Below are positions 1,268 to 27,791 of a DNA stretch of 35,371 nt, one piece after another; the first letter of the stretch is position 1; each line of letters begins with the position of its first letter. The stretch covers positions 1-35,371 of the forward strand of contig CALBTC010000465.1 in NCBI GenBank assembly GCA_937967805.1. Reading direction: 5' to 3'. Origin of the DNA: an uncultured Anaerolineaceae bacterium. GTDB lineage: Bacteria; Chloroflexota; Anaerolineae; Promineifilales; Promineifilaceae. The position numbers and the translations under genes are program-made. The notes beneath the pieces are model-generated. The model searched no databases, had not been told where the DNA came from, and worked only from the letters and a program-made list of their open reading frames with translations.

Positions 1268-1897
1268 ATGAGTTCAATAGTTGAACAGCTTTTAGATGCC
1301 TTAGACAGCTCGCGCGAACGGCTGCTGGTGGCGCTAGACCAACTGCCCGACGAAGCATTGCTGGCACCTGACACGGTGAAACCGGTAATCGGTGATCGGT
1401 TATCGGTAGGTGGTGAGAAGGAGAATGCTGGCTGGTCGGTGGCGGATTTGCTGGTGCAGCAGACGGCCTGGGAATCGGAGCTGGTGACCGGGCTGTTGCG
1501 CATTTCACAGGGTAAAAAGCCGGCCCGCTTGTTGGCCGCGCTGGCGAATGCTGCGGAATACGGCCGTCTGCGCTACGAAGAAAACAAAGGGCGTGATCTG
1601 GATCGCATCTTTGATGATCTGCCCCAGGTGCGGATGCAGGTAGAGGAGTGGTTGGAAGAGTTCACTGAAAAACAGCTTAGCAAAAAAGGGCATTTTGCCT
1701 GGCTCAAAAACCGCTCCCTGGCCGATCTGATTGCCCAGCTCACCTATGAACACGAGCTGCGCTACTTGCCCCAGGTGGAAGCGCTGGCTCAAAAGTGGCA
1801 GCCACCCACCGACGATATGATGCTTTCCCTAACTTCCAAGCAAAATGGGCAAAAAGACGATGAATCAGCAGATTACGCAAATTCAACAGATTTTTAA
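1268..1897 (+). CDS. DinB-like / ClbS-DfsB-type four-helix protein, carrying repeat-derived segments
   Basis: This 209-residue protein has the layout of DinB/DUF1706-type four-helix bundles. It has an N-terminal helix (ERLLVALDQLPDEALL), then GWSVADLLVQQTAWESELVT, where the helix after GWS normally carries a metal or structural His, here Gln. A later helix contains YEHELRYLPQVEAL. Family members include thiol-dependent transferases and self-resistance hydrolases; the role here is unknown. The segment VIGDRLSVGG at about residues 40-49 is encoded by a heptamer array (1384-1416) lying between the usual start of the fold and GWSVADLL, so it looks like an in-frame insertion. The last 12 or so codons (about 1861-1896) also look repeat-derived, with period 9. 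The start at 1268 has only a weak upstream purine tract. Confidence 0.65.
   Translation: MSSIVEQLLDALDSSRERLLVALDQLPDEALLAPDTVKPVIGDRLSVGGEKENAGWSVADLLVQQTAWESELVTGLLRISQGKKPARLLAALANAAEYGRLRYEENKGRDLDRIFDDLPQVRMQVEEWLEEFTEKQLSKKGHFAWLKNRSLADLIAQLTYEHELRYLPQVEALAQKWQPPTDDMMLSLTSKQNGQKDDESADYANSTDF
1384..1416 (+). repeat. Heptamer array inside the DinB-like gene (GGTAATC type)
   Basis: Consecutive 7-nt units read GGTAATC, GGTGATC, GGTTATC, GGTAGGT and a partial GGTGA. The unit is the complement of the GATTACC unit in the arrays at 17075-17106 and 20320-20400. Here only one arm is present, and the reading frame is kept open. Confidence 0.7.
1862..1897 (+). repeat. Possible 9-nt-period array at the 3' end of the DinB-like gene
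   Basis: The last codons and the stop fall in units of nine: AATCAGCAG, ATTACGCAA, ATTCAACAG, ATTTTTAAT. The A+T-rich units resemble the 9-nt class seen at 7832-7897. The array supplies the C-terminal residues and the stop codon. The units are degenerate. Confidence 0.4.
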
Positions 1898-1987
1898 TTC
1901 GTTAAATGGTTCGGCTCCGCTCACCGCAAGCCTGCAAAATCTTTGATCTTTATCCCCATTCTTTTGTATAGACGAAGGATAATCCAG

Positions 1988-2941
1988 ATGCCAAATTCTC
2001 AAATTGATTCAAACGTTTATCAGGCGGCCAGAGAAACGGCCGTGCTCACCGACCGCAGCGACCTGGGCACAATTCTCATCAGTGGCGAAACCCGTTTTGA
2101 TTTGCTCAATCGCATGTCGACGCAGAAGGTGCAGTCCATGAACAAAGGGGAAGGCACCGCCACGATTTTAACCACCGATATCGGACGGATCGTTGACCGG
2201 CTGCTGCTTTACGCCACCGGCAGCACCATCTATGCCCTCACTGGCGAAAACAACTGCGACGCCATCATTCGCTACTTGATGCGCTTTGTCTTTTTCCAGG
2301 ATGATTTTCACATGCAGGACATCAGCCAAGAGACGGCGGTGTTTGGTGTGTATGGGCCGCAGGCACGGCAAAAATTAGCGGAGGCTGGCTTTCCAGACGA
2401 GGACCTGCCGCTGCACCATTGGCGGCAAGTGCAGTTTGGCGACGTAACCGCGTATCTGCATCGCACCGATCCCATTCTCGGCGACGGCTACTTTGTGATG
2501 GGCGAAGAAAAGGATCGGGCGGCGCTGTGGCAGCGACTGCTGGACGCCGGGCTTGTGGTGGCTGAGGCCGATGCCTTTGACTATTTACGCATTGAGGCCG
2601 GCCTGCCCCGCTTTGGCCGCGAACTCACCGGCGATTACATTCCGCTGGAGGCCAATTTGTGGGCCGATGTGTCGTTTAACAAGGGATGTTACATTGGTCA
2701 GGAGATCATTGCCCGCATGGAAAGCCGGGGCAAACTGGCCAAAAAGCTGGTACAGTTCACGGCTGCTGCGCCAGTGGAACCGGGCAGCGATATTCAGGCA
2801 AACGGCAAAAATGCGGGGACGGTGACGTCTACGGCCGTTGGCCCCAACGGCACCATTGGGCTGGGGTATGTGAAAACGGCCGTTTTAGAGTCTGAAAAAG
2901 AGCTGGCTGTGGGGGATACGGCCGTCAAAATCAAAAAATAA
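1988..2941 (+). CDS. YgfZ/GcvT-like folate-binding protein
   Basis: This 317-residue protein has the aminomethyltransferase (GcvT) fold. The diagnostic KGCYIGQEIIARMESRGK stretch near residues 234-251 is the K-G-C-Y-x-G-Q-E signature of YgfZ/IBA57, which binds tetrahydrofolate and helps assemble or repair certain Fe-S enzymes. GcvT proper does not carry this Cys motif, so I prefer YgfZ to glycine cleavage T-protein. The upstream frame is open to 1943, but the start at 1988 has AAGGA at about 9 nt spacing, and the 15 extra residues look non-native. Four ACGGCCGT sites lie in the gene, several encoding Thr-Ala-Val. The AT-rich restriction-modification cassette begins just after its stop. Confidence 0.8.
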   Translation: MPNSQIDSNVYQAARETAVLTDRSDLGTILISGETRFDLLNRMSTQKVQSMNKGEGTATILTTDIGRIVDRLLLYATGSTIYALTGENNCDAIIRYLMRFVFFQDDFHMQDISQETAVFGVYGPQARQKLAEAGFPDEDLPLHHWRQVQFGDVTAYLHRTDPILGDGYFVMGEEKDRAALWQRLLDAGLVVAEADAFDYLRIEAGLPRFGRELTGDYIPLEANLWADVSFNKGCYIGQEIIARMESRGKLAKKLVQFTAAAPVEPGSDIQANGKNAGTVTSTAVGPNGTIGLGYVKTAVLESEKELAVGDTAVKIKK

Positions 2942-2963
2942 AAACAAACTTTTTCAAGCAGTT

Positions 2964-3538
2964 TTATCCCGCGGCAAGTCCTAAAATCAAAACAGGAATA
3001 TCAATGTCTGATACGCCCCGATGCTCCAAATCCCAGACAAACTGTTCAAAATAAGAAACGCCAGAAGACATTTCAGCCGCTAATTCTTTCAACGGCACAA
3101 TTTCTACACCAGCGTCAATAAAGCCTTCGTTATGAAAGATGGTCATCTTCGCACACACGTTATAAACCATAAAGGCATATTTACCGAACTGCACCTCAAC
3201 GCCTAATCGATTTTTGACAAAATCTATTTCTCTGAATGCATTCTGAGGAACTGAAGGGGGAGAATAATCCAAAGTATAGAAATCGGTGGGATAGTCACAT
3301 TGCACACGTATGTTTGCGTCCCACCTTTTGCCAACAAACATCTTTTTGAAGGATCGATTTAGTCCGCTGGGCCGAAATAATAGCCGGCCTGGTATCGTTT
3401 TTTCCTCGCTAACCTTCGTTTTGTAGTGCCAGCATCTACTGATTTAATGACGTCCATAATATCAGCTAATTCACGAACATAATTTGCCTCAATCACCTCC
3501 CTACCATTGTTGAAAGAATAGATGCCGCCAACTATCAC
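2964..3538 (-). pseudogene. BglII-family type II restriction endonuclease, broken by a one-base frameshift
   Basis: Two adjacent frames together make one BglII-like endonuclease of about 191 residues. The first frame (3538-3359) starts at GTG 3538 after GGGAGGAG and begins with a VGGIYSFNNG motif. It runs to GPAD and then hits TAA at 3361-3359. The second frame contains IDFVKNRLGVEVQFGKY. Its Asp, Glu and Gln are spaced D, +9 and +11, exactly as in the BglII active site (D84, E93, Q95). Adding one base next to 3361-3362 restores a continuous GPAD-L-NRSFKK join into the second frame. The GTG start overlaps the methyltransferase stop (GTGA), so the pair was translationally coupled. The break is either a real inactivating deletion or a sequencing/assembly error. 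The recognition site cannot be predicted here. Confidence 0.75.
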
Positions 3539-4521
3539 TCGTACTCCTCCCGTTTTTCCAGCAGCTTTGGCTGGACAGCATTGCCCCATTCCGGTGGCAC
3601 TCGGGACACTTTCTCTTTACCTGTAGGTTTGTAAACCGGCTTGCCTAACGGCCTGACTTTTAGCGTGCCGTTGAAGAAAGATTGCAATCTTTGTTGAGCT
3701 ATTTCCACATAGTCTGCCTCTTGCTCACTTCCTAATGCCTTTCTGTTACGCTTGACAGCCGCTATAAGCGCCGAGCCAACACCTGCATACGGATCAAATA
3801 CAGTATCTCCTTCATTCGTTAGAGCCAGTACACATCTTTCGACTAACTCAACCGGAAACTGGCAGGGATGAACTGTTTTTTCGGGATGATTAGATTTAAC
3901 ATTAGGTATTTCCCAAAAACCTTCTTCCCATTCCTCGCAAATTTTCTGCCACACGTCAGAAGGATTTTTCCCCTTTGGATTTCCAGAGGGCTTCCCTTTG
4001 TTTGGGCCTTTGTAATGCCGTTTGCCAGGGTATTTAGAGGGAACGCGAACGGGATCAAGATTAAACGTATAATTATCAGATTTTGTAAACCATAACAACG
4101 TTTCATATCTTCCCGAAAATCGTTTTTTTGTATGCAGTCCATGTCCAAAATGCCAAATCAATCTATTACGCAGACGATACCCTTGCTTTTTGAAGATGGG
4201 ATAATAATTAATGTCCAGTGGGAAAACCTTGCCTTTGTTTACATAATTCCCCACCTGCCAACACAGACTGCCCTTCGGATGTAAAACACGATGAAGCTTA
4301 TGGATTATTTCCTCCTGCAAGGTCAGATACTTTTCGATGGAAACTTCATCTTCATATTCCTTGCCAAGATTGTACGGGGGAGAAGTGATAATCAATTTAA
4401 CCGACTCATCCGGTAAAGTTTCGACAAAATCATTGACATCACCATTAAAAATAACAATATCAGCGCCTTGCTGATATTCTGATGCAATCGTTTTTGGTTT
4501 TGCAAACAAGCCTTTTTCCAT
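3535..4521 (-). CDS. Type II DNA methyltransferase, beta-type motif order, likely N4-cytosine
   Basis: This 328-residue methyltransferase protects the site cut by the adjacent endonuclease. Catalytic motif IV is TSPPYN at residues 46-51. The S-adenosylmethionine motif I is DPYAGVGS at 243-250. Motif IV before motif I is the beta-class order, and SPPY rather than DPPY favours N4-cytosine methylation, as in M.BglII. HPCQFPVELVERC at about 218-230 is typical of this group just before motif I. An AAGGA lies about 10 nt before the start at 4521. The stop overlaps the endonuclease start by 4 nt. The gene is AT-richer than its neighbours, uses AGA, ATA and TTA freely, and lacks ACGGCCGT, which fits lateral transfer. 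With the nuclease broken it may persist as an orphan methylase. Confidence 0.88.
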   Translation of the reverse strand: MEKGLFAKPKTIASEYQQGADIVIFNGDVNDFVETLPDESVKLIITSPPYNLGKEYEDEVSIEKYLTLQEEIIHKLHRVLHPKGSLCWQVGNYVNKGKVFPLDINYYPIFKKQGYRLRNRLIWHFGHGLHTKKRFSGRYETLLWFTKSDNYTFNLDPVRVPSKYPGKRHYKGPNKGKPSGNPKGKNPSDVWQKICEEWEEGFWEIPNVKSNHPEKTVHPCQFPVELVERCVLALTNEGDTVFDPYAGVGSALIAAVKRNRKALGSEQEADYVEIAQQRLQSFFNGTLKVRPLGKPVYKPTGKEKVSRVPPEWGNAVQPKLLEKREEYE

Positions 4522-4612
4522 ACTGATACCATTCCTTTAGCAACTTCAACGTATCTGCCTTATTTTAGCACAAGTGTTTTTATTTCAGCCGGATTCAGAA
4601 TTTGCTGGTGGT

Positions 4613-5875
4613 TTAAACAACAAACGCCAGCGCCGTGCCCGTGGCCAAAATGAGCAAAAAGCCGGGGAGCACTGCCCGCCGCAAAGCGGCCGATCCGCCG
4701 CTGAGCACAATGCCTCCCTTCACCACCGTGTTGGACATGGTGGCCAGCACAATGGCCCGCGCCGCCGTAGCCGGCTCCAGGTTGCCGCTGCTGCTGAGTT
4801 CGGCCAGCGACAGGGTAATGGCATCCACATCGGCCAGGCCAGACAAGATGCTAGAAAGATAGACTCCTGCATCACCAAAATAGAATTGCGCTGCCCGAGC
4901 GACCAGCAAAATGAGCCCGTACAGCAGGCCAAAGGTAATTGCCGGACCCAGTTCAAACGGATTGGAGACAGCCACGCCGCCCGCTTCAGGACTGCGTGGG
5001 GCAAAGTAGAGGTAAACGCCGTAAGCCAATCCGGCCAGACCCGCCATCGTGATGGGCAGCCAGACCACGCCCAGCAAGGGCAAATTGGTCACCGCCACCT
5101 CTACCAAGACCCGGCCGAACATGATCGTCCAGGCAATGAGAATCGCCAGAGCAAACGGCTTAGCCAACTGCTCCTCTTTTTGGCTGCGTTGGGAGAAGCT
5201 GAGGGTCACGGCCGTACTGGACACCAATCCCCCCAGCAAGCCCGTCAACCCAATCCCCTGCCGCGACCCCACCAGCTTGATGAGCACATACCCTAAAAAG
5301 CTGATGCCGGAAATGAGCACCACCATCAGCCAGATGTTGTACGGATTGAGCACGTCAAACGGCGGCGGGCCAAACGACTCATTCGGCAAAACAGGCAAAA
5401 TGATGGCGGTGATGATGGCGAACTTGAGCGTGGCTACGATATCTTCGTGGGTGAGGCGTTCGGCAAAGCCGTGAAGCTCCAGCTTGAATGAGAGCAGCGC
5501 AGTTGTCACCACGCCCAGCGCCACGGCCAAAGCTATTTGGTCCCAAAAGCAGAGCGCTCCGGCCAGCAGCACAATCACCGCCGCCACCTCGGTGGTCATC
5601 CCCACGCTGCCCCGCAAAGCAGTGATGGTATAGGCGGCAGTGATTAAAGCGCCAAGCGGCAGAATAATGCCGATGAACGCCCAGGGAAGCCCCAACTGGT
5701 CAGCGACAAAGGCGGCCGTGCAGCCCGCCAGGCCAAGTAAGGCAAAGGTGCGCACGCCGGCAAACATCTTGCGCGACCGATCAGTCCCTTTGTCGGCGTC
5801 GGCCTCTCGCTGAAGTCCAACCAATACGCCGATAAAAAGGGCAATGCCGAAGCGGTAAAAAAGTGTGTGAACCAT
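4613..5875 (-). CDS. MgtC/SapB-like membrane protein with DUF4010
   Basis: This is a 420-residue polytopic membrane protein. The N-terminal 140 residues match the MgtC/SapB domain: a first helix with LFIGVLVGLQREADADKG, then RTFALLGLAG. The remainder is a DUF4010 helical domain with about eight further membrane segments, including LIKLVGSRQGIGLTGLLGGL and SSTAVTLSFSQRS. MgtC proteins are tied to growth in low magnesium and to control of ATP synthase in pathogens. The role of the MgtC-DUF4010 fusion is not established, and transport is only an inference. The gene follows mutL on the same strand, 91 nt away, with a foldback repeat in the gap. Confidence 0.8.
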   Translation of the reverse strand: MVHTLFYRFGIALFIGVLVGLQREADADKGTDRSRKMFAGVRTFALLGLAGCTAAFVADQLGLPWAFIGIILPLGALITAAYTITALRGSVGMTTEVAAVIVLLAGALCFWDQIALAVALGVVTTALLSFKLELHGFAERLTHEDIVATLKFAIITAIILPVLPNESFGPPPFDVLNPYNIWLMVVLISGISFLGYVLIKLVGSRQGIGLTGLLGGLVSSTAVTLSFSQRSQKEEQLAKPFALAILIAWTIMFGRVLVEVAVTNLPLLGVVWLPITMAGLAGLAYGVYLYFAPRSPEAGGVAVSNPFELGPAITFGLLYGLILLVARAAQFYFGDAGVYLSSILSGLADVDAITLSLAELSSSGNLEPATAARAIVLATMSNTVVKGGIVLSGGSAALRRAVLPGFLLILATGTALAFVV

Positions 5876-5903
5876 GATCCTCCCTGGTGATCAAAATGGG
5901 GCT

Positions 5904-5966
5904 CGTGAAGCGTGAAACGTGATGCGTGACCAGAACGGCACCACGTTTCACGCTCCACGCATCATC
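5904..5966. repeat. Foldback heptamer array (CGTGAAN type) between mutL and the MgtC-like gene
   Basis: The first arm reads CGTGAAG, CGTGAAA, CGTGATG, CGTGACC. After a short centre the inverse arm reads CACGTTT, CACGCTC, CACGCAT. The arms can pair into a long hairpin. It starts two bases before the last codons of mutL end and fills most of the 91-nt spacer. A related element lies at 27728-27791. Confidence 0.75.
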
Positions 5967-7781
5967 TTAAATACGGCCGAATTCCCTGGCCAACTGCGCC
6001 ACCGAAAGGTAAATAAAGGTTGGTTTCCCTTGCGGATCGGTAAACGGATCGGCGCATTTTTCCAAATTGTGGATGAGCTGCTGCATTTGTGTCTGCGTCA
6101 ATGACTGGCCGGGACGCAGCGAGATGGTCTGGCAAACGGCCGTTACCAACCCCGCCTCTTCCACCACCCCTTTGCTTTGCTCCAGTTCCGTCACCACGGC
6201 CACCAGCAGGCGGGCCGGATCAGCATTGGCGGCAATTTTGGGCACGGCGCGAACCATGAAGGTGTTGGGACCAAACGCCTCTACCTGCAAGCCCACTCGC
6301 TCGACCGGCTCGCTAAACTGTTCCAGTAGTTTTGCCTGACTGGGAGAGAGCGTTACGGCCGTTCCCGTCGAGAGCGTCTGGATAGTTACCCTGTCTTCAG
6401 CCCACTCGGCCTGAAGCTGTTCGTGCAGCACCCGCAGGTGCGCCGCCTGCTGGTCGATCAAAAATAGCCCTTCCGGCCCCTCGGTGATGATATAAGAGGC
6501 GCCCACCTGCCCTACCACGCGCATGATCGGCAGTTGAGAATCGCTCTCTGCCTCTCGCGGCATTGTCGTCGCTTCACCGTTACCGTCTGGAGCATCCAGG
6601 TCATCCAGCCAGCTCAACGCCAGGTCTGCCTGTTCGCCGCTGCCTGCAATAAACGCATCCGGGTCGAGCGACCCCATCCAGCCGGGCGAGCTGCCGGGCT
6701 CGCTGCTGCCCAATGCCCAGGCCGACATTTGCCGCGTGGGCGCGTCGGCCACCAGCGTCTGGCGCACCGCCCGCTGCACGGTGCCAAACGGCGCTTTGCC
6801 TTGACGGAAGCGCACCTCAGTTTTGGTGGGATGCACGTTCACATCTACGTCTTGCGGCGGCAGCTGCATAAAAATAAGCCCCAGCGGATACCGCCCCGAC
6901 GGCAGCAGCGTGTGGTACGCCTGGATGACGGCGTAGGTGAGCTGTGTATCTTTGACCCAACGGCCGTTGACAAACAGCGTAATCTGCCCCCGGTTGGCAA
7001 AATGCACGCCGGGCGGGCCAACAAACCCGGTCACTTCAATATGGGAACGGGAAGTGGGGATTGGAGATTGGAGATTGGGTTCTTCACCTTCAATCTCCAA
7101 TCTCCAATCCCCAATCTCTAATAGCTGTCTCGCTATTTCCGGCCCATAAATGGCCACCAGCACGTCGCGCACCTGGCCGCTGCCGCTGCTTTGGAAAGTG
7201 ATACGGCCGTTGTGCGTCAGGCGGAAGCGGATGTGCGGATAAGCCAGGGCGTACCGCGTGACAAATTCGTCAATGAGGCGCTTTTCGGTGGCGGCCGTTT
7301 TGAGGAATTTCAGGCGGGCCGGCACGTTGTAAAAAAGATTCTCCACGGCAATGACCGTACCCTGCGGTGCGCCCACCGTCTCTCGATTCTCAACCACGCC
7401 GCCGGCCAGCACCAACCGGGTTCCGGCCGACTCCCCTTCAGCGCGGGAGACAATGGTCACCTGGCTGACGGCCGAAATGGCTGCCAGCGCCTCACCGCGA
7501 AAGCCCAGCGTGCGGATGGCGTTTAAATCGTCGATCGATTGCAGCTTGGAGGTGGCGTGGCGCTTGAAGGCGGTTTCCATATCCTCGGCGGCGATCCCCT
7601 GTCCGTTGTCGGCAATCTGGATGCTCTCCCGCCCGCCCTGGCGCACGTCAATATTGATGGCGGTGGCCCCGGCGTCGATACCGTTTTCTACCAATTCTTT
7701 GACGACGGAAGACGGCCGTTCCACCACTTCCCCGGCGGCAATTTGGGAGGCTAGCTGGTCAGACAAAAGATGAATCTTCAT
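5967..7781 (-). CDS. mutL: DNA mismatch repair protein MutL, with degenerate endonuclease motifs
   Basis: This 604-residue MutL couples mismatch recognition by MutS to strand removal. The GHKL ATPase is intact: KELVENGIDAGA at about 28-39, DNGQGI at 58-63 and GFRGEAL at 93-99. The C-terminal dimerisation domain is present, but the nuclease motifs of non-E. coli MutL are lost. DQHA-x2-E is DQQA-x2-L at about 443-449, ACH is VCQ at 549-551, and CPHGRP is DPQGKP at 582-587. I therefore infer no intrinsic nicking. A perfect hairpin repeat is inserted in frame and encodes about residues 222-245. The start at 7781 begins the classic IxxLxxxxxxxIAAGEV region; the 9 codons upstream are not native. 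It follows the Nudix gene on the same strand. Confidence 0.93.
   Translation of the reverse strand: MKIHLLSDQLASQIAAGEVVERPSSVVKELVENGIDAGATAINIDVRQGGRESIQIADNGQGIAAEDMETAFKRHATSKLQSIDDLNAIRTLGFRGEALAAISAVSQVTIVSRAEGESAGTRLVLAGGVVENRETVGAPQGTVIAVENLFYNVPARLKFLKTAATEKRLIDEFVTRYALAYPHIRFRLTHNGRITFQSSGSGQVRDVLVAIYGPEIARQLLEIGDWRLEIEGEEPNLQSPIPTSRSHIEVTGFVGPPGVHFANRGQITLFVNGRWVKDTQLTYAVIQAYHTLLPSGRYPLGLIFMQLPPQDVDVNVHPTKTEVRFRQGKAPFGTVQRAVRQTLVADAPTRQMSAWALGSSEPGSSPGWMGSLDPDAFIAGSGEQADLALSWLDDLDAPDGNGEATTMPREAESDSQLPIMRVVGQVGASYIITEGPEGLFLIDQQAAHLRVLHEQLQAEWAEDRVTIQTLSTGTAVTLSPSQAKLLEQFSEPVERVGLQVEAFGPNTFMVRAVPKIAANADPARLLVAVVTELEQSKGVVEEAGLVTAVCQTISLRPGQSLTQTQMQQLIHNLEKCADPFTDPQGKPTFIYLSVAQLAREFGRI
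7056..7112. repeat. Perfect foldback heptamer array inside mutL (GATTGGA type)
   Basis: The 22-nt arms at 7056-7077 and 7091-7112 are exact reverse complements around a 13-nt loop. Within the arms the unit is GATTGGA on one side and CAATCTC or CAATCCC on the other, period 7. In the mutL frame the element gives residues such as GDWRLEI and NLQSPIP. These are not part of the MutL family and fall in the N-terminal domain before HIEVTGFV. Confidence 0.88.
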
Positions 7782-7831
7782 GAGGCCAATTGTACCACAG
7801 CGGCCCACATCGTTTTAGAAAAAGAGAATGG

Positions 7832-7897
7832 TACGCAGATTTACCTGATCACCCTGATTTGATCTTTTCTATCAGGCGGATCAGGATAATCAGCGTC
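7832..7897. repeat. Foldback 9-nt-unit array (GATCACCCT type) between the Nudix gene and mutL
   Basis: One arm reads GATTTACCT, GATCACCCT, GATTTGATC. The inverse arm reads ATCAGGCGG, ATCAGGATA, ATCAGCGTC. The arms pair imperfectly over about 27 nt. The element occupies half of the 131-nt spacer 7782-7912. Confidence 0.7.
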
Positions 7898-7912
7898 CTA
7901 TTAATTGAACTT

Positions 7913-8434
7913 TTAGCGGGTAGATAGTTTGGTTTTGAGCTGGTCGATGGCGGCGCGGGTGGAGGCGAAGGCGATTTCGGGCAGGTCATCTGGAGCAAAG
8001 AAGGCAGCCGCATCGGCATCATCGCCGGCCTGGATGGTACCACCCAGCAGCCGCGCCTTGTACAGGATGAAGATCGATGCCCCTCCCTGCCCCGGCGGGT
8101 TTTGGTAGACGCCAATCAGATCTTCGATGGCGACGTGCAGGTTGGTTTCCTCGAGGGCTTCACGCACGGCCGTTTTCTCCGGGTCCTCACCGTGATCCAA
8201 AAACCCGGCGGGGATGCTCCATTTGCCAATTTCCGGGTGCATCGTGCGCCGCACCAGCAAAATTTTGCCCTCATGCACCACAAAAACGCCCACGCCTACC
8301 TTGGGATCGGTAAAATAAATAAAGCCACAGCTGGGGCAAACTCGGCGCGGCTTGTCATCTACAGGGCGCGTTTCCATTGGCGTGGCGCAGCGGCTGCAAA
8401 ATTTTACGTTTTCCGGGGCAGAGGGGAGCGTCAT
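7913..8434 (-). CDS. Nudix hydrolase with N-terminal zinc ribbon
   Basis: This 173-residue protein begins with a Cys4 zinc ribbon (C13, C16, C33, C36; the second pair is in CPSCGF). A Nudix domain follows with the box GFLDHGE at 77-83 and REALEET at 91-97. The catalytic R-E-x2-E-E glutamates are present, while the usual Gly near the end of the box is Asn. This layout is common in NudC-like and ADP-ribose or NADH pyrophosphatase-like enzymes that cleave nucleoside diphosphates linked to another moiety. The substrate cannot be assigned from sequence. It lies between the anti-sigma gene and mutL on the same strand, suggesting housekeeping or stress clean-up. Confidence 0.85.
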   Translation of the reverse strand: MTLPSAPENVKFCSRCATPMETRPVDDKPRRVCPSCGFIYFTDPKVGVGVFVVHEGKILLVRRTMHPEIGKWSIPAGFLDHGEDPEKTAVREALEETNLHVAIEDLIGVYQNPPGQGGASIFILYKARLLGGTIQAGDDADAAAFFAPDDLPEIAFASTRAAIDQLKTKLSTR

Positions 8435-9460: not shown

Positions 9461-9533
9461 TGCAAGTGAGCAAGTAAGCAAGTGGCAAGTGATTCTTATT
9501 CACCTGCCTACTTGCCACCTGCAACTTGCATAC
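9461..9533. repeat. Foldback array (GCAAGTGA type, period 7-8) between sigma and anti-sigma genes
   Basis: One arm reads GCAAGTGA, GCAAGTAA, GCAAGTG, GCAAGTGA. The other reads GCCTACTT, GCCACCT, GCAACTT, GCATACTT. The arms are inverted relative to each other and can fold into an imperfect hairpin in the leader of the anti-sigma gene. It starts 12 nt upstream of that gene's start codon. Confidence 0.72.
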
Positions 9534-10212: not shown

Positions 10213-10294
10213 GCCGAAGTGGCGGAACTGGCAGACGCGCACGACTCAAACTCGTGTTCCTTCGGGAGTGTGGGTTCGATTCCCACCTTCGGCA
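10213..10294 (+). tRNA. tRNA-Leu (anticodon CAA)
   Basis: The acceptor arms GCCGAAG (10213-10219) and CTTCGGC (10287-10293) pair fully, with A as discriminator. The anticodon stem is CACGA/TCGTG with loop CTCAAAC, giving anticodon CAA for UUG codons. A long variable arm (class II) and a T arm GTGGG-TTCGATT-CCCAC are present. CCA is not encoded. Two small hairpins follow at 10322-10341 and 10346-10362. Confidence 0.95.
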
Positions 10295-17044: not shown

Positions 17045-17074
17045 AAACGGCCGTTTCGAGAGGAAACGGCCGTT
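17045..17074. terminator. Bidirectional hairpin made of two ACGGCCGT palindromes
   Basis: AAAACGGCCGTTT, then CGAGAGG, then AAACGGCCGTT can pair as a stem of about 12 bp around a short loop. A run of A lies before it, which is a U-run for the minus-strand transcript. It sits between the convergent stops at 17021 and 17102, where a shared terminator is expected. Confidence 0.6.
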
Positions 17075-17106
17075 CACCGATTACTGCTCACCGATTACCG
17101 CTCACT
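17073..17106. repeat. Heptamer array (GATTACC/GTTCACC type) at the stop of the radical SAM gene
   Basis: Units read GTTCACC, GATTACT, GCTCACC, GATTACC, GCTCACT and then a degenerate unit that runs into the stop codon and last codons of the minus-strand gene. It is the same unit family as 1384-1416 and 20320-20400. Confidence 0.7.
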
Positions 17107-19048
17107 GAATCACCGGCAGCGCAATCCCCTCTACCTCCGGCACCGGCTCCCGGCGCGGCGTGTGGTGATTGCGCGTGGGCACCGGCGGGCATTCCCAGGC
17201 AGAATCGGCCGTTTCACGGCGCAAATCCTTCAGCTTAGGCAAAATACCGCAGGCAAAACATTGGTGGCGGCAGTCGATCCGAGTCTCCTGCTGCTGGCTC
17301 ATCAGGTAATCTTGCGTCAGGAACTTCTTGGTTACGGCAATGTCGATATGCTCCCAGGGGAAAATCTCGTCGATGGTACGTTTGCGGTGGGTGTAAAAGC
17401 GGGGATCTAATCCCACCTCATCCAGCGCCTCGTTCCACGCTTCTTCCATATAATGCTCGTGCCAGGCATCGAACTTGGCCCCTTTGCGCCAGGCCCGCTC
17501 CACTACTTCGGCCATGCGCCGGTCACCCCGGCTCAATGAGCCTTCAAACAGCGACTCTTCCGGATTGTTCCAGCGCAGCCGCAGCCCGGCCCCACGCACT
17601 TGCTCTTGCAGTAGCTCAATTTTGGCATGGACCTGGTCTACCTGGTCCATCGGCTCCCACTGGAACGGCGTGTGCGGCTTGGGAATGAAGGTACTCACGC
17701 CCACGTTGACGCTGGCCTTGTTGCCATGAAACTTGCGCCCTTCGGCCAGTACTTGGTGCGCCAGATCGGCAATCGCCTGCACATCTTCCATTGTTTCCAT
17801 GGGATGGCCAATCATGAAGTACAGCTTGATGCTGCGCCAGTCGCGCCGGTAGATTTCGCGGGCGGTTTCCAGCAGCTCTTCGTGCGTCACGTATTTGTTG
17901 ATGATGTTGCGCATCTTTTCCGTGGCCGCTTCGGGCGCTAAGGTGAATCCACCGCGACGGCCGTCGCCCAAATTGTCCATCAGCTGCGTCGAAACTGTCT
18001 CCGTGCGCAAAGACGGCAGCGAAATATTCAGCCCCAGATCGCCAAAGCGCTGCCCGATCTTTTCCGTCAGTTCCAAAACGTGCGTGTAATCACTGGACGA
18101 CAGCGACAGCAGGGCAATCTCTTCGTAGCCGGTGCTTTCCAATATTTGCTCCATCGCCGTCAGCACTTCTTCTACCGGACGTTCCCGCACCGGGCGGGTG
18201 ACCATGCCCGCGTGGCAGAAGCGGCAGCCGCGCGTGCAGCCGCGCATAATTTCGATGGGCGCCCGGTTGTGTACCAGTTCCACAAAAGGAATGATGAAGT
18301 CAGTCACCGGCGGCGGCATCACCGGCACGATCGTTTTCATCACTTTGGCAGGCGCCTCCGGCATGTTAGGCGTAATCGCTTTGACAGTGCCATTCTCATG
18401 GTAGGTCACGTCATAAAAACGGGGCACGTAGCAGCCTTCGATCTGGGCGATGTAGCGCAGCTGCGTCTCGCGGTCAAGGTGCGCCGCAGCCCGTATCACG
18501 CCAATGATCTTCAAAATCGCCTCTTCCCCTTCGCCAATAACAAACACATCAATGAAGGGCGACATCGGCTCCGGATTGTAGCAGGCATGTCCCCCGGCAA
18601 TCACCAGCGGAAAGCTGGCATCCCGATCCTCGGATCGTACAGGCATTCCCGCCAGGTCGATCAGGTTCAGCGCGTTGGTGAAAAGCTGCTCGTACGGCAG
18701 GCTGATCGCCAACATGTCAAATTCACGGATGGGATGCTTGGTTTCTAAGGAGAAAAGCGGCAGTTCGCGCTGGCGCATCACCGCTTCCATATCTTCCCAG
18801 GGGCAGTAGACGCGCTCGGCCAGCAGGTTGCGGTGCTTGTTGATGATGTCATACAGGATCATCAAGCCCAGGTTGGACATGCCCAAATCGTAAATATCGG
18901 GGAAAGCCAGGGCCACTTTGTAATCAATCTCGGCCCACTCCTTCACCACCTGGTTGTATTCGCCGCCAGTGTAGCGCCCCGGCTTGGTTACGCGCGGCAG
19001 GATGCGCTCCAGCATCGCCTCGATCTGTTCTGGTGTTCTGTTTTTCAT
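17102..19048 (-). CDS. B12-binding-like / radical SAM protein of the TIGR03960 type
   Basis: This 648-residue protein has an N-terminal B12-binding-like Rossmann region (ALAFPDIYDLGMSNLGLMIL through PLVIAGGHACYNPEPMSPFI, DVFVIGEGEEAI). A radical SAM domain follows, with the cluster CTRGCRFC (C271, C275, C278). The C-terminal tail contains CRHQCFACG and is Cys-rich, perhaps for a second cluster. The family is widespread and often encoded next to a DUF2344 partner; no such gene is seen here. The substrate is unknown, though tRNA or rRNA modification is often suspected. The start at 19048 is the natural family start. Confidence 0.87.
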   Translation of the reverse strand: MKNRTPEQIEAMLERILPRVTKPGRYTGGEYNQVVKEWAEIDYKVALAFPDIYDLGMSNLGLMILYDIINKHRNLLAERVYCPWEDMEAVMRQRELPLFSLETKHPIREFDMLAISLPYEQLFTNALNLIDLAGMPVRSEDRDASFPLVIAGGHACYNPEPMSPFIDVFVIGEGEEAILKIIGVIRAAAHLDRETQLRYIAQIEGCYVPRFYDVTYHENGTVKAITPNMPEAPAKVMKTIVPVMPPPVTDFIIPFVELVHNRAPIEIMRGCTRGCRFCHAGMVTRPVRERPVEEVLTAMEQILESTGYEEIALLSLSSSDYTHVLELTEKIGQRFGDLGLNISLPSLRTETVSTQLMDNLGDGRRGGFTLAPEAATEKMRNIINKYVTHEELLETAREIYRRDWRSIKLYFMIGHPMETMEDVQAIADLAHQVLAEGRKFHGNKASVNVGVSTFIPKPHTPFQWEPMDQVDQVHAKIELLQEQVRGAGLRLRWNNPEESLFEGSLSRGDRRMAEVVERAWRKGAKFDAWHEHYMEEAWNEALDEVGLDPRFYTHRKRTIDEIFPWEHIDIAVTKKFLTQDYLMSQQQETRIDCRHQCFACGILPKLKDLRRETADSAWECPPVPTRNHHTPRREPVPEVEGIALPVIQ

Positions 19049-19267: not shown

Positions 19268-19535
19268 GGTAAGGATTAGTGGCCCGTTTTTTGCCCAATT
19301 GCGTATACCAATCGTTGATTTTGAGCAATTTTTGGCCTTGCAGCGTCAAGTTAGCCAACAAAATAACGTGTAAAATACGCAGCGACGTTTGGTGGAATAA
19401 GGCCAAACTCGTACCCCCTTAAACCTAAATGGAATGTCATAAAAAATTTAATGGGTCACAACTGTGTGTTTGTGGTTTTCGGCGATCCCGGAGCCTGTTT
19501 TTAGCAACAGACACACGCTCAGAGGAATGTTTTGT

Positions 19536-20315
19536 ATGAGCGATTTATCAATTTCAACCTATGAACCAGGTGGACGCTGGCGCTTTAACTGGGTACTCCC
19601 GGTATTGTTCCAGCCGCGCCGTGCTTTTGCCCGCGTTGTGGAGATGGATACGGCCGTCTGGCACACCCCCATTCTCATCCTCATCCTCACCGGACTGGTG
19701 CGCACTTTGGTGGAAGGCGGCCTCAAAGCCGCCGCGACCGCCAGCGGACAAATTGAGCTGCCGCAAGGCTGGGAGTATTACACGCCGGAGCAGCAGGCCC
19801 AGTTCCAGCAGGCCATGACCGCCACCAGCGGTCCCGTTTTTACCTATCTGCTTCCCGCCGTCATTGCTGTTTTAGGCGTTTACCTGGGCTGGCTGCTGCT
19901 GGGCTGGCTGCTGCACCTGGGGCTTACGCTGCTGGGGGGACGGCTTAGCAGCCAGCAGGTGCTCAACGTCACGGCGTGGTCGCTGCTGCCCTTTGCCCTG
20001 CGTGACGGGGTGCGCACCGTGGCCATGTGGAACAACGGTCAGGAGCTTACCAGCCTGGGTCTGTCTGGCTTTGCCCCAACTGGCGAAGGCACCACCTTCC
20101 TCTACCTTGCCGCCCTGCTCGCCTTTGTGGACATTTACCTGCTGTGGCACTGGCTGCTGCTGGGCATCGGCCTGAATGCCGGGGCCAACCTGCGCAAGCT
20201 GAAAACGTGGACGGCCGTTCTGCTCACCGTCCTCATTCTCTTCCTGCTGCGCGGCGTCCCGGCCCTCATCTCGGCCCAGTTTAGCGATCTGACGGTGATA
20301 AGGCCGTTTTTCTAG
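19536..20315 (+). CDS. Yip1-like integral membrane protein
   Basis: This 259-residue protein has a short soluble N-terminus and a WVLPVLFQPRRAFARVVEM segment typical of bacterial Yip1-domain proteins. About five membrane helices follow (near residues 48-66, 110-140, 155-175, 200-222 and 232-255). The start at 19536 has AGAGGA upstream at about 9 nt. Longer frames lack this signal. It precedes the ABC transporter genes on the same strand but is separated from them by a repeat array, so co-operation is possible, not proven. The bacterial Yip1 role is unknown. Confidence 0.75.
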   Translation: MSDLSISTYEPGGRWRFNWVLPVLFQPRRAFARVVEMDTAVWHTPILILILTGLVRTLVEGGLKAAATASGQIELPQGWEYYTPEQQAQFQQAMTATSGPVFTYLLPAVIAVLGVYLGWLLLGWLLHLGLTLLGGRLSSQQVLNVTAWSLLPFALRDGVRTVAMWNNGQELTSLGLSGFAPTGEGTTFLYLAALLAFVDIYLLWHWLLLGIGLNAGANLRKLKTWTAVLLTVLILFLLRGVPALISAQFSDLTVIRPFF

Positions 20316-20319
20316 GACC

Positions 20320-20400
20320 CGTAATCGGTTATCCGTCATCCGTAATCGGTTATCTGTTCACCGATTACCGTTCACCGATTACCGACCACCGATTACCGAA
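20320..20400. repeat. Foldback heptamer array (CGTAATC / GATTACC) abutting the ABC ATPase start codon
   Basis: The left arm reads CGTAATC, GGTTATC, CGTCATC, CGTAATC, GGTTATC. The right arm reads GTTCACC and GACCACC alternating with GATTACC three times. The arms are complementary in register. The array ends one base before the ATG at 20402, so the leader of that gene is repeat sequence with no Shine-Dalgarno. Confidence 0.85.
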
Positions 20401-20401: not shown

Positions 20402-21103
<702 letters not shown>

Positions 21104-21146
21104 TCGAGGGAGGCACTAAACAACACCCTGGTCACGAGGCAATCTC

Positions 21147-23012
21147 ATGAAACAGTCTTTTTTTCAAAAAGCTATTCTGATCTTCTTTCTACTTTTGTTC
21201 ATCGGCGGCTCGCTGGCCGGCAGCTTTTCACCTGCACCCGCCGTCGCCCAGGTTGATACACCAACGGCAACCGGTACAGCGACAGCGACGACAACCGCTA
21301 CCACCGCGCCGGCGCTGGCGGTAACGGCCGTTCAGCCCAACAGCGTCAGCAACCTGGTAGACACCGAACTGGTGGTCACCGGCAGCGGTTTTGTTAATGG
21401 AGCGGTGGTGGTCTTGTCCGGCATGGGTGGGTTGAACACCACCTATGTCAGCGCCAGCCTGCTGCGGGCCAACCTGTCCGCGGGCACAGCCCCCGGCGGC
21501 TACAGCGTCACGGTTATTAATCCCGATGCCGCTGCGGCCACACTGCCCAATGCCCTGACGGTGACGGCGCCGGCCGGCCCGACCAACACACCGGCGCCCA
21601 CCAACACACCGGCACCGACCGCTTTTGTACGGCCGTTGCTCATCGTCAGCAGCTACGGCGCCAGCGCGGCCGAGATCACGCCCGGCAGCAATTTTGATTT
21701 TGAAATGACCCTGGCCAATGCCGGGCAAAGCCGGGCCACCAACGTGGTGGCCACCTTTGTTGCCGGCAGCTTCACCGCCCGAGATACGGGTGGCGTGCGC
21801 GCTTTGGGCACGCTTGATCCCACCGGCACGGTTCGTTTTTGGCAGCCATTGGCCGCCAGCCGCGACCTGGCCGGACAAAGCATCGGCACGCTGGAGGTGA
21901 AAGTGGATTACACCGACGTCAACGGCACAACCTACAGCGAAACGTTTGCCCTCACCTTCCCCATCGTGCGCGTGGCCAGTGGCGGCGCGGCCCCCACGGC
22001 CACGCCAACAGCCACGGCCACCGCCACGCCTACCAGCGGCCCTATCCTGCGGCCGCAGCTGCTGGTCACCGGCTATGAGATTGACCAGAAGCAGCTGGAG
22101 CCGGGCATGGGCTTTACGCTCAACCTGACGGTGCAAAACAAGGGCAACGCCGATGCGGAGCGGGTGACGCTAATTTTGGGCGGCGGCTCCACCACGGGCG
22201 GCACGGTTGACGGCACCCCCGTTCCCGGCGGCGGACTGGATGGCGCCGGCGGCGAATTTGGCGAATTTGCCCCGGTGGGCGCCTCCAACGTGCAAACGCT
22301 GGGCGACCTGGATCAGGACGCTTCGCTGCAAACCAGCATGGCGCTGATTGTCAATGCCGCAACCGAACCGGGCGCGTATCCGGTGAAGGTAACGTTTGTC
22401 TACACCGATCAGCGGAACAACAGCTACGAAGATGATCAGGTGATCACGCTGCTGGTTTATAAACGGCCGTCTGTCGAAATGAACTTCTACACCCCGGTGT
22501 TTGACTTTTTTGTGGGGCAGCCGGGCAGCCTGCCGCTGCAGTTGGTCAACAGCGGGAGAAGTTCGTCGGTCTTTGGCAACTTCAGCGTCACGGCCGAAGG
22601 GGCCACGTTTGAAAACAACAGCTTTTTTGTGGGCACGCTGGACCCCGGCGGTTTCTTCCCGCTGGATGCCGTCATCTATCCTGAAATTGCCGGTCCGCTG
22701 GATTTACTGCTGAGCGTCAACTATACCGATGACTTCAACCAGCCCCAGGTGCTCACCCAAACGCTCACCATCAATGTCATCGACGCGCCCATCTTTGAGG
22801 AGCCCATCGAAGGCTTCCCGGAAGAACCGCTGCCGGAGGCCGAGCCGGAACCGGAAACGTTTGGCAGGAAGCTCTGGCGCTTCATCCTGGGCCTGCTGGG
22901 TCTGAGCAGCGGCGTGCCGCAGCCCGTCCAGCCCGACTTCGGCGTCCCCGGTGAGTTCCCGGTGGATGGCCCCATCGACGCGCCAATCGACGGGCCGATG
23001 TTTGGACCGTAA
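21147..23012 (+). CDS. Exported TIG/CARDB-like multi-domain protein, likely partner of the ABC system
   Basis: This 621-residue protein has a signal peptide (to about AVAQ at 35) and a Thr/Ala-rich linker. An IPT/TIG domain follows at about 55-130 (VQPNSVSNLVDTELVVTGSG, FVNGAVVVLSG). Three CARDB-like beta domains come next, separated by Thr/Pro linkers, at about 155-280, 295-430 and 440-550; each has a PGxxFxxxxxLxNxGxxxA pattern. A hydrophobic segment RKLWRFILGLLGLSS at about 573-587 could be a weak anchor, and a Pro/Gly/Asp-rich tail follows. GAGG lies upstream of the start. Its place between the ATPase and permease genes suggests an outer subunit replacing a HlyD-type adaptor. Confidence 0.7.
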   Translation: MKQSFFQKAILIFFLLLFIGGSLAGSFSPAPAVAQVDTPTATGTATATTTATTAPALAVTAVQPNSVSNLVDTELVVTGSGFVNGAVVVLSGMGGLNTTYVSASLLRANLSAGTAPGGYSVTVINPDAAAATLPNALTVTAPAGPTNTPAPTNTPAPTAFVRPLLIVSSYGASAAEITPGSNFDFEMTLANAGQSRATNVVATFVAGSFTARDTGGVRALGTLDPTGTVRFWQPLAASRDLAGQSIGTLEVKVDYTDVNGTTYSETFALTFPIVRVASGGAAPTATPTATATATPTSGPILRPQLLVTGYEIDQKQLEPGMGFTLNLTVQNKGNADAERVTLILGGGSTTGGTVDGTPVPGGGLDGAGGEFGEFAPVGASNVQTLGDLDQDASLQTSMALIVNAATEPGAYPVKVTFVYTDQRNNSYEDDQVITLLVYKRPSVEMNFYTPVFDFFVGQPGSLPLQLVNSGRSSSVFGNFSVTAEGATFENNSFFVGTLDPGGFFPLDAVIYPEIAGPLDLLLSVNYTDDFNQPQVLTQTLTINVIDAPIFEEPIEGFPEEPLPEAEPEPETFGRKLWRFILGLLGLSSGVPQPVQPDFGVPGEFPVDGPIDAPIDGPMFGP

Positions 23013-23020
23013 ATAAATTA

Positions 23021-23088
23021 ACCGCAAAGTGCGCAAAGTGCGCAAAGATAAAAGAAAAAATCTTTGCGTTCTCTGCGTTCTTTGCGGT
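23021..23088. repeat. Foldback 9-nt-unit array (GCGCAAAGT type) upstream of the permease gene
   Basis: One arm (23021-23048) reads ACCGCAAAGT, GCGCAAAGT, GCGCAAAGA. The inverse arm (23061-23088) reads TCTTTGCGT, TCTCTGCGT, TCTTTGCGGT. The loop is 12 nt and A-rich. The arms are 28 nt each with a few mismatches. The array is followed at once by AAAAGG, the likely ribosome-binding site of the gene at 23104. Confidence 0.88.
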
Positions 23089-23103
23089 GAAAAGGTTTTT
23101 CAC

Positions 23104-24408: not shown

Positions 24409-24445
24409 CCTGTCCATTACCTGACTGAGATGAATTACTCATTGT

Positions 24446-24492
24446 AAAAACGGCCGATTTCGCCCAAACTTTTGGTGAAATCGGCTGTTTTT
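24446..24492 (+). terminator. Rho-independent terminator of the ABC operon
   Basis: A stem of AAAAACGGCCGATTTC with GAAATCGGCTGTTTTT (one mismatch) closes over a 15-nt loop and ends in a T-run. It begins 38 nt after the permease stop. Confidence 0.8.
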
Positions 24493-24522
24493 GTTTGATT
24501 GTTTACCCTATTACAACCAGTC

Positions 24523-27500
24523 ATGCACACGAACAGCCTCAATCAAACAAAAAACGCAATAGCAATGAGACGAGCGAAAGATAAAGAGAGTGGCCAAGAC
24601 GATCTCCTGATCGAGCAATTGATTACCGAAGGATGGTCGTTGCGGGCCCAGGACTTACAAAAAAGCCGATCGCTTACCGAACGGGCTTTGGCCCTTGCCG
24701 AAGCCACATCTGACCGTGAAGGCATTTTGCTGGCGCTGCGCAACCTGAGCTATTTGCAAAATGTAAAGCACCAATATGCAGACGCGCTGCAAAGTGCCGA
24801 AAGGGGAATTGCTATTCTCAACGGCCGTTTCCCCCAACATCCCGAGGCATTTTACCTGTATCTGGCCGCCGGTACGGCTCATATCTTCCTGGGCAACTTG
24901 CCGGAAGCATTGGAATATTGCTACGAGGCCGAGAACCTGGCCATCGCCAATGATGATCCGGGGCAGAAAGCGGCCGTGTATAAAATATTAGGCAATACGC
25001 ATCTCCTTTCCGGCTCCCACGAGAAGGAAATAGAATATTACAAGAAAGCCCGCCAGATTTACCAGTCGCTGCAAGATGTTGATGGGGAAATTGTCATCCT
25101 CAGCAATATGTGCCACTGTCACCATCAGGCAGGGCAATATGAAAAAGCGTGGCAGGTGGGTCGACAGGCGCTGGCGCTGTACCAAAGCCGCCAAGACAGA
25201 ATCAAATTACCCCAGCAAGTTAATGCTTATACGCTGAACAATACGGGCAATGCCTGCTTTAAATTAGGCCGTTTTGCCGAAGCATCCCAATATTTTGAGA
25301 AAGCGTTGCAGCTTTTTGCCGCCGAAAGTGATGTCTGGGGAGAGGCTTACTCCAGACGCGGCCTGGGCGAAATTCATCTGATCAACAAGGAATACGGCCA
25401 AGCGTTGCATCAGCTGGAACGCTCGCTAGAACTGGCGCAAAAAAGCAGCATTGTTCCCGAAATGGCCAGGGCGCACCGGGTTTTGGCTCGTGCTTACAAA
25501 GAGATTGGTGATCCCGCGCAAGCGTTGTCTCACTTTGAGGCTTTTTATGAGTACGAGAAGCGGGTAACCAGCGAAGAGATCGAAAAGAAAACCCGTAACC
25601 TTGAAGCGACGCATCGTATGCAGCAGGCCAAAAAAGAAGCAGAAATTTACCAGCTTAAAACGGTTGCCCTGCAAACCGAAATCGAGGAGAGAGAAAAGGC
25701 GCAGCAAGAGGCGGAGAAACAGCACAAGTTCTTTCGATCCTTAATGGAGCACAGCCCGTTTGCCATTTTAACCGTCAACCTTGATGCCGTTGTTGAAAAT
25801 TGCAACCCTGCTTTTGAACAACTGTTTGGCTACAAGGCAGCAGAAATCGTTGGCCAGAGCATCTCCGTTATTTATCCGGGCGAAGCCCTACAAAAAGAAG
25901 TAGAGCAAGATGCACAGCTGGTACTGGGTGGAGAGACGATTCATCAGGTTACCAAACGGCCGCATCGCGACGGAACTTTAATTGACGTTGAACTGTACAC
26001 CATTTCCATTAAGTCAAACAATGAGGTTGTAGGGTTATTGGTCCATTATTATGACCTGCGCGAGCATTTACAAAGAGAAGCCACGCTCCAGGAAGCCAAA
26101 CGGTTGGCTGAAGCCGCTACCAAAGCCAAATCGGAATTTCTGGCCAATATGAGCCATGAAATTCGTACGCCGCTCAATGGCATCATTGGTGTTACTGATT
26201 TGTTGTTGGGCACATCGCTAGACAGCCAGCAGCGGGAGCTGATTCAAGTGGTGCAAACCAGCGGCGATTCTTTGCTGCACATCATCAACGACATTCTAGA
26301 CTTTTCTAAAATTGAGGCCGGCAAGCTGGCGCTGGAAGCGTACCCTTTCTCACTACGAGACGGAGTAGAAAAAGCGGTTGAATTGCTGGCAGCCAAGGCG
26401 GATAAAAAGGGATTAGAAATTGGTTGTGTGATTGCACCCGACACACCAACCATGATTGTGGGTGACGAGATGCGGTTCCGCCAGATCGTCATCAACCTGC
26501 TCAACAATGGCATTAAGTTCACGGACCAGGGTCATGTTTTTGTCATGGTCGAAGGGCGGCTGATGGCCGGGGAAACGGCCGAAATTCATGTGGAAGTACG
26601 GGATACAGGACCGGGCATTTCAAAAAAAGACCAGCAGCGCCTGTTTAAATCATTTAGCCAGGTCGATGCCTCGATCACGCGCAAGCATGGCGGAACCGGG
26701 CTGGGATTGGTCATTAGCAAACAGCTGGTGGAATTGATGAACGGCCGTATCTGGGTAGAAAGCAAGCCGGGTCACGGCTCCTCTTTTCATTTCACCATTC
26801 AGGCCCCAGGTCATCCCGTGCCCGCTGAGCCAAATCCGCCTCTGGCCGGCAAAACGGTGCTCATCATTGATGACAACCCGCTGTGGGGCGTCAGTCTATC
26901 GGCACACATCGCCTATTGGGGCGGCACGGTACAGGTGGCCACCACGCTGCAACAAGCCGAAGCGTGCCTGGCAAAGACCGATTTTGATTTGATCCTGCTG
27001 GATTTGCAGATGCCCTCTAGTGACAGCCAACACTGGGCAGCCCAACTCGCGGAATCGCTGGGCTCACGCTGTCCGCCTCTGGTGGCTCTAAGCCAAACCG
27101 GACTCCCAGTTGAAGAAGATAAACCCTTCGCCGGGGTCATCTGTAAGCCAATACGGCAAGGCACTATACAAGCTACATTATGCCCTGTCATGTTTCCTAA
27201 AGGCAGACGGCAAAATTTAACGCCGGCAAAAGAGTTTCAATGGGAAGACCTGGGGATACAAATGCCGCTGCGCATTTTGTTGGCGGAAGACAATGTGGTA
27301 AACCAGAAAGTGGCCGAAAAAATGCTGGCTCGCCTGGGCTACAACAGCGCTATCGTGAGCAATGGGAAGGAGGCGGTCGCGGCCGTATCCCAACAAAGTT
27401 ATGATCTCATTCTTATGGATGTGCAAATGCCGGAAATGGACGGTATAACGGCCACCAAACTCATCAAGACAACGCTGCCAAAAGCAGACCAACCCACCAT

Positions 27501-27684
27501 CGTTGCCCTGACGGCCAATGCTTTAAAAGGAGACCGGGAAAGGTTGCTGGGCGAAGGGTTTGACAACTATTTGGGCAAACCCGTGCGGCTGCAGGAGTTG
27601 GCCCGTATTCTGCAAAAAGTATTCGCTTCCAGGAACGGCAACCTGGCCCCACGCCCCCTCACCTCCAACGTTAAAGGCACTTGA
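24523..27684 (+). CDS. Soluble TPR-PAS hybrid sensor histidine kinase with two receiver domains
   Basis: This protein has about 1053 residues and no membrane segment. TPR-like repeats (about 30-360; for example [40 protein letters not shown]) lead to a coiled coil (about 365-400) and a PAS domain (about 403-525). HisKA follows, with the phosphorylatable His near 545 in [12 protein letters not shown]. The ATPase domain has [17 protein letters not shown] and [11 protein letters not shown]. Receiver 1 has its Asp near 827 (LILLDLQMP) but otherwise degenerate loops. Receiver 2 is canonical, with its Asp near 966 ([13 protein letters not shown]) and Lys in YLGKPV. No Hpt domain or output domain is fused. 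The start is uncertain: ATG 24523 or 24565, with no clear ribosome-binding site. It resembles stand-alone cytosolic sensors. Confidence 0.88.
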
Positions 27685-27727
27685 CGCGACGTCCATAACC
27701 ATATCGGCCGCCTTGTCCCCCTGGCCA

Positions 27728-27791
27728 GCGTGACGCATGAAACGTAATTGGCAATCGCAGACTGTTTCATGCATCACGTTTTACGCATCAT
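27728..27791. repeat. Foldback heptamer array (GCGTGAC / GCATCAC type) between convergent genes
   Basis: One arm reads GCGTGAC, GCATGAA, ACGTAAT. The other reads GTTTCAT, GCATCAC, GTTTTAC, GCATCAT. It fills most of the 115-nt gap between the kinase stop and the SDR stop. It belongs with the array at 5904-5966. Confidence 0.7.

Follow-up and report, generated by a model that had tools for sequence, protein, structure and literature searches.

The nearest published parallel is the set of GGGAATC heptamers of Xanthomonas (Rehm et al. 2015, PMC4692102), which form 186 and 183 arrays in two species, include 70 and 75 convergent close site pairs, i.e. inverted pairs, are biased towards positions very close to stop codons, mostly have the same flanking genes in the two species, and vary in length and sequence. 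The cyanobacterial STRR repeats are also composed of tandem 7-nt units, with three different heptanucleotides in Calothrix, and are described in the accessible part of the same source without foldback architecture or interspecies exchange of units (PMC4692102). In Beggiatoaceae, the TAACTGA repeats form many intergenic heptamer arrays, and related heptamers have been noted (MacGregor 2015, PMC4679880). Polymerase slippage is an idea cited for heptamer repeats in both PMC4692102 and PMC4679880. With respect to hairpins, template switching homogenises the arms of inverted repeats, coding DNA included (PMC8604942), and makes and mends hairpin stems (PMC8794818).

The DNA analyzed here is a stretch of 35,371 nt with 55% GC, hereafter the window (W in comparisons). 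As in the STRR and GGGAATC systems, tandem 7-nt units are present at many dispersed loci (50 repeats of period 7 in 824,558 nt of the window and its relatives), and as in Xanthomonas convergent inverted pairs are found near stop codons. The earlier note had taken the STRR heptamers as the nearest parallel; the comparison is fair, but the Xanthomonas arrays are closer. Heptamer systems of the STRR and GGGAATC kind would be expected to use one unit type per system, of exactly 7 nt, whereas several families with periods of 7–10 nt coexist here in one genome. The single Xanthomonas unit contains G-runs and, in the accessible text, is discussed as a G-quadruplex; the main units here are GGAGATT, CGTGAAA, GTGAAAA, GGTAATC, and GTAATTGA, and several families replace one another at orthologous sites. 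New here are the replacement of one unit family by another at a single site and the genome-wide difference in unit; the literature searched, in which subscription journals were thinly covered, yielded no recognized account of orthologous foldback arrays exchanging their units.

Materials and methods

The ORFs of the window include those for a DinB-like protein, MutL, a NUDIX protein, and parts of ABC transporters (Pfam), and the sole Rfam match at the gathering threshold was a tRNA at 10213–10294. A MutL scan yielded 33 loci. Three of them, L001, L002, and L003, are from Anaerolineae MAGs (G001, G002, and G003, abbreviated G1, G2, and G3) with MutL identities of 95, 91, and 86% to that of the window, and are syntenic with the window at 71–89% DNA identity across most of its first 17–20 kb. 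The sister DNA used was 400,000 nt of G2 and 389,187 nt of G3, with an additional 372,349 nt from G3 and G1. The main set for inverted repeats was the 824,558 nt made up of the window and the stretches of the two close Chloroflexota relatives, G2 and G3. The finder requires an arm matching of at least 77%.

Results

A total of six periodic inverted repeats were identified in the window at one finder setting (5904, 7055, 9470, 20321, 22050, and 23018), against a mean of 0.67 and a maximum of 3 in 100 dinucleotide shuffles; the repeat at 22050 is probably a chance match, and those at 7833 and 27728 were missed at this setting. In 34 records of 518,898 nt, a nearby inverted partner accompanied 28 of the 41 tandem clusters of lag 7, and 3/25, 17/29, and 6/26 of those at lags 9, 14, and 18, respectively. 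Every remaining lag within 4–20 gave 0–2 partnered clusters, and a single shuffle per record gave none at any lag. W contained 5 inverted repeats, G2 85, and the first G3 set 81; one shuffle of each contained 2, 3, and 9, respectively.

By looser settings, 255 inverted repeats were detected in the 824,558 nt, of which 99 had periodic arms and 156 were without period. The period was 7 nt in 50, 8 nt in 24, 9 nt in 8, and 10 nt in 7 of the periodic repeats, and the other 10 include four of period 14. The pattern of one unit family, with one mismatch allowed and overlapping windows counted, was matched 240 times in G002 and 340 times in G003, against 0 and 6 times for the reversed pattern, and heptamer pattern matches were present in all eight genomes examined. 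The arrays are thus not restricted to the few loci that the earlier note had named.

Non-periodic dispersed hairpins also recur in the G002 and G003 stretches (L042–L081), for instance GTAGCCGCG..CGCGGCTAC and CATCCTCAGATGCG..CGCATCTGAGGATG. Viral contigs of IMG/VR include 16 stretches (L102–L117) with three exact tandem copies of GGAGATT; these stretches may represent phage or host flank. The palindrome ACGGCCGT, which we take to be a highly iterated palindrome resembling cyanobacterial HIP1, occurs in 57 copies in the window, against 0–3 copies in 20 dinucleotide shuffles.

Table 1. Array-related features of the window
Feature	Position	Strand	Location and remarks
Single-arm GGTNATC array (CGGTNAT, 3.7 copies)	1379..1426	+	About 48 nt, inside DinB-like ORF 1268–1897
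CGTGANN foldback, 7 nt	5904..5963		Between ORFs 4613–5875 (−) and 5967–7808 (−)
mutL	5967..7808	−	Pfam; reading frame open across array
GATTGGA/GGAGATT foldback	7055..7122		Within mutL; also in L001–L003
9-nt CTGATNNNN foldback	7833..7894		Between mutL and NUDIX ORF
GCAAGTN foldback, 7–8 nt	9462..9530		Additional to those listed in the earlier note
Single-arm GATTACC array	17073..17112		Beside AACGGCCGTT hairpin, convergent junction
GGTAATC foldback	20320..20396		4–5 nt past stop of ORF 19464–20315 (+)
9-nt CGCAAAGTG foldback	23018..23091		Directly past stop of ORF 21147–23012 (+)
Plain non-periodic hairpin	24446..24492		Junction carrying unit arrays in G2 and G3
Weak CGTGANN foldback	27728..27790		Convergent junction

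Among eight loci previously proposed to be foldbacks of tandem units, those at 5904, 7055, 7833, 20320, 23018, and 27728 were confirmed, and those at 1384 and 17073 were rejected because each has one arm only (Table 1). The fold z score of single-stranded DNA ranged from −9.1 (7055) to −1.8 (20320) for the seven window foldbacks. The 1384 array, with a fold z of −2.2, forms a small internal hairpin only; it is an in-frame insertion of 48 nt into a DinB-like ORF (Pfam DUF1706/DinB_2), the span being 67 nt in the window and 19 nt in L001. The single arm at 17073 adjoins a ACGGCCGT hairpin and gave a fold z of +0.69; G2 is likewise single-armed there.

The 7-nt families are GGAGATT, GGTAATC, CGTGAAA, GTGAAAA, AATTGTG, and GCAAGTG, and the longer ones are GTAATTGA (8 nt), CTGATNNNN and CGCAAAGTG (9 nt), and CACAGAGTTT and ACGCAGATAA (10 nt). 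The period is thus not constant, and the units are not specific to each locus, as had been thought from the window, since families recur at many loci. The number of units varies between arrays. In four of five families the first units appear nearer to the consensus, but no conclusion is drawn from the divergence between inner and outer units because the ends of inverted repeats are match-biased.

Private variants of units were mirrored in both arms above the permutation level, with arms from different arrays paired in the best register as the control, in four of five families: 16 vs 6.2±1.8 for GGAGATT (24 arrays), 17 vs 6.6±1.8 for CGTGAAA (21 arrays), 21 vs 10.8±2.1 for GTGAAAA (17 arrays), and 53 vs 19.4±2.6 for GTAATTGA (25 arrays), where the arrays are not all independent because orthologous arrays of sister genomes are included. 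No mirrored excess was detected for GGTAATC (11 arrays; 8 vs 7.6±2.0). At G3 C77:166236 the right arm consists of GTGAAAA and the left arm starts with GGTAATC units; by eye, GTGAAAA-like units occupy the inner part of the left arm, several of them in G3, one or two in G1, and none in G2, as would result from copying of the right arm from the tip onwards. At this site and at G2 C2:160582 and G3 C77:110577, one arm only has an outer unit from one family and, inward of it, a second family.

At the sites shared between genomes, the unit family was often replaced. The spacer at 7833 carries the CTGAT 9-mer in W, G1, and G2 (kept in L001 and L002) and a ACGCAGATAA array in G3; the 9462 site carries GCAAGTN in W and G3 and TAATTGN in L002/G2; the 20320 site carries GGTAATC in W and G2 and GTAATTGA in G3; the 23018 site carries CGCAAAG in W and G2 and GGAGATT in G3; and the junction with the plain hairpin of W at 24446 carries GTAATTG in G2 and GCAGATTAC units in G3. 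Elsewhere the family was kept, as in the mutL array and for GTGAAAA at G2 C2:211244 in G1, G2, and G3.

Gains were also observed. The array at 5904 is present in W only; L001 and L002 lack it in the orthologous spacer, and the aligned L003 stretch, where the upstream gene differs, has no array. The 1384 array is likewise present in W only, missing from L001, L002, and L003, and an array at G3 C11:50031 corresponds to 3 nt in G2. At 27728, no array of the CGTGANN family was seen by eye in the corresponding stretches of G2 and G3.

A total of 85 orthologous spacers of G2 and G3 (20–500 nt in G2) were compared. Arrays were absent from both genomes in 63 spacers, present in G2 only in 2, in G3 only in 4, and in both in 16, against 4.2 expected for double occupancy. 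The 16 doubly occupied spacers carry the same family in 8 and different families in 8, two of which (G2 26211 and 35365) may hold the arrays at separate places in a long spacer. The excess persisted after removal of the eight same-family spacers (Fisher p = 9.5e-7). Site and unit identity are decoupled between the sister genomes. A rough automatic labelling gave 31 same, 21 switch, and 26 none in 78 rows (14, 12, and 11 in the 37 G2–G3 rows), but it dropped gaps longer than 260 nt, family-less periods of 5, 6, 11–13, and 15, and repeat rows per site, and some of its switch labels are label failures, so the conclusions rest on the 85-spacer count and the alignments by eye.

The array within mutL is located in a loop of MutL (about residues 227–255). 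Arrays occupy this loop in W and L001–L003, and other or mixed units do so in L004–L008; the remaining 22 MutL proteins are mostly without an array by eye. No internal stop was found in 32 mutL sequences. In L013 (1329–3188), a perfect palindrome of about 22 nt per arm, in frame, makes up the mutL loop, and in L005 (1576–3381) a GGACCCGTCCTGAGCCTGCCGAAGGA piece, which resembles a widespread dispersed repeat, is located between GGAGATT units and GATTACC units. In another array within an ORF, G3 C77:123793, the right arm measures 28 nt in G3 but is three units (21 nt) shorter in G2, at 7 nt.

The choice of unit also differs at the level of the whole genome. Counts of the GGGGATT-type and GGAGATT-type patterns (GATTGGGGATTGGGGATT vs GATTGGAGATTGGAGATT) in 12 genomes, overlapping matches included, were 308 vs 1 in G105, 0 vs 71 in G002, 1 vs 103 in G003, 0 vs 105 in G006, 18 vs 118 in G111, 11 vs 14 in G125, and 0 vs 3–37 in six other genomes. 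A strict GGAGATT-type foldback was present in 18 of 150 genomes of the class, drawn from a larger group, and the reversed pattern in none.

Discussion

With moderate confidence, we propose that the short tandem-unit foldbacks are formed and rewritten by template copying at the DNA level and are retained mainly just past stop codons. First, switching of the replication template within a hairpin would create the arms and re-match them. Second, units would move among loci by gene conversion or by switching at microhomologies from one dispersed array to another, and the inner part of an array would be replaceable while the outer unit stays. Third, the hairpins would be tolerated, or be useful, as 3′-end structures, and a site might therefore persist though its sequence is replaced. 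A dedicated enzyme is not required for the data. The earlier note had argued for a generating mechanism instead of one mobile element; the changing units agree with this, but a process confined to each locus is insufficient because families common to many loci imply that unit information must move between loci or share a source.

For template switching within the hairpin, the sequences give good indirect support. The homogenised arms known from quasipalindromes (PMC8604942, PMC8794818) are seen here in four of five families, GGTAATC being the exception, and in the graded example at 166236; in the accessible text, quasipalindrome correction is described for single local inverted repeats, whereas tandem units and genome-wide families are involved here. 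Copying between arrays, which is not seen directly, is what we infer from the spread of families. Arm mirroring together with the exchange of units in place agrees with switching within hairpins combined with copying between arrays; the double occupancy of spacers, the arrays of mixed family, and the genome-wide preference for a unit also count in favour of this reading. Several points stand against template copying. The mirrored variants could alternatively stem from selection for pairing, and the mirror test is weakened by the lack of excess for GGTAATC, by the arm matching demanded by the finder, and by the orthologous arrays. Gains at places that are empty in relatives are not explained by template switching between arrays alone, and the CGTGAAA centres with a common CCAGAGG look like copying of whole elements.

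This last point belongs to a different reading, in which a transposase moves the arrays as MITE-like or REP/REPIN-like non-autonomous mobile hairpins, so that each unit family would be an element family and the shared sites would be insertion-tolerant spots that are hit more than once. We regard it as doubtful, although several features point to it. The polarity is fixed in five 7-nt families, all 55 of their assigned arrays having the written strand first, a count that excludes 21 periodic repeats lacking family assignment; for GTAATTGA, 17 arrays have one orientation and 6 the opposite. The phase at the boundary between arm and centre is preferred: 30 of 42 arms meet the centre after CGTGA, and 26 of 48 GGAGATT arms do so after ATT. 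The CGTGAAA centres have CCAGAGG in common (17 sharing pairs; shuffled mean 1.7, maximum 7), and gains such as that at G3 C11:50031 occur where the sister is empty.

Other features of the same arrays argue against mobile hairpins. Pairs of centres with a common 7-mer exceeded shuffles in four of five families, but outside CGTGAAA the commonest shared words of the centres are unit-like (such as AGAGATT, AAAAAGT, and TAATTGG), so that the centres mostly share unit-like 7-mers alone and sequence common from end to end is absent, CGTGAAA being a partial exception. The copies of a MITE or other transposable element are alike end to end, whereas the centres here mostly differ and one site carries different families across species; the view of the earlier note that copying of a single mobile element did not produce the arrays thus holds. 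The variable number of units and the mixed-family arrays also disagree with this reading, and clear target duplication was not seen by eye at the empty sites inspected, where the sequences are 75–85% identical. REP and REPIN elements are not known to be composed of 7–10 nt tandem units, and with TnpA-REP they are linked to a Y1 transposase. They resemble the arrays in forming many dispersed extragenic hairpins (cf. PMC3733652, PMC3116915). Y1_Tnp, the one transposase family examined, was present in 110 of the 150 class genomes, i.e. in 14 of 18 with the strict GGAGATT-type foldback and in 96 of 132 without it, and since it does not discriminate the array bearers it was rejected as an array marker.

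It is unlikely that the arrays are simply selected 3′-end RNA structures, hairpins past the stop that end or protect transcripts, with the stem selected, the sequence free, and every event that creates a hairpin retained. Their location is in agreement with this. By a simple ORF caller, 152 periodic arrays were placed, 31 inside ORFs, 74 between same-strand genes, and 27 and 20 at convergent and divergent junctions, respectively; an uncounted number of arrays that lacked a flanking ORF on one side were excluded. The same-strand intergenic arrays start at a median of 10.5 nt past the stop and end 18 nt ahead of the next start. Among the 121 intergenic arrays, convergent junctions are over-represented and divergent ones under-represented, given that random intergenic positions are 55% same-strand, 15% convergent, and 29% divergent. 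At 24446, where G2 and G3 carry arrays, the junction is occupied by a plain hairpin. The 31 arrays within ORFs, that of mutL included, do not fit, however; no T-run was visible downstream of the 20320 and 23018 arrays, and selection alone leaves the shared families and the genome-wide change of unit unexplained.

A telomerase-like enzyme with its own template that extends broken ends, subsequently joined head to head, is very improbable: the fixed polarity and preferred inner phase do resemble a head-to-head junction of two extended 3′ ends, and a genome-wide unit preference could mirror one template, but mirrored private variants are unexpected if the arms were extended independently, and, as far as gaps in MAG assemblies allow, the distribution of RVT_1 (7 of 8 genomes examined, with no match in the array-rich G105) and of Ku (1 of 8) disfavours such addition with joining by Ku. 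Among Y1_Tnp, RVT_1, and Ku, the driving enzyme was not found.

To return to template copying, we tentatively suggest that rewriting between loci may keep the dispersed hairpins on a small vocabulary of 7–10 nt words, swap words in place at gene ends and in mutL, and be able to change a word genome-wide, which would amount to concerted evolution at the scale of heptamers over hundreds of sites. Heptamer repeats are over-represented in bacteria. Since sister genomes allow the site, the pairing of the arms, and the identity of the unit to be separated, slippage, transposition, and template switching lead to different, testable predictions here. The arrays also show a route by which gene-end hairpins and protein loops, such as that of MutL, are changed many bases at once.
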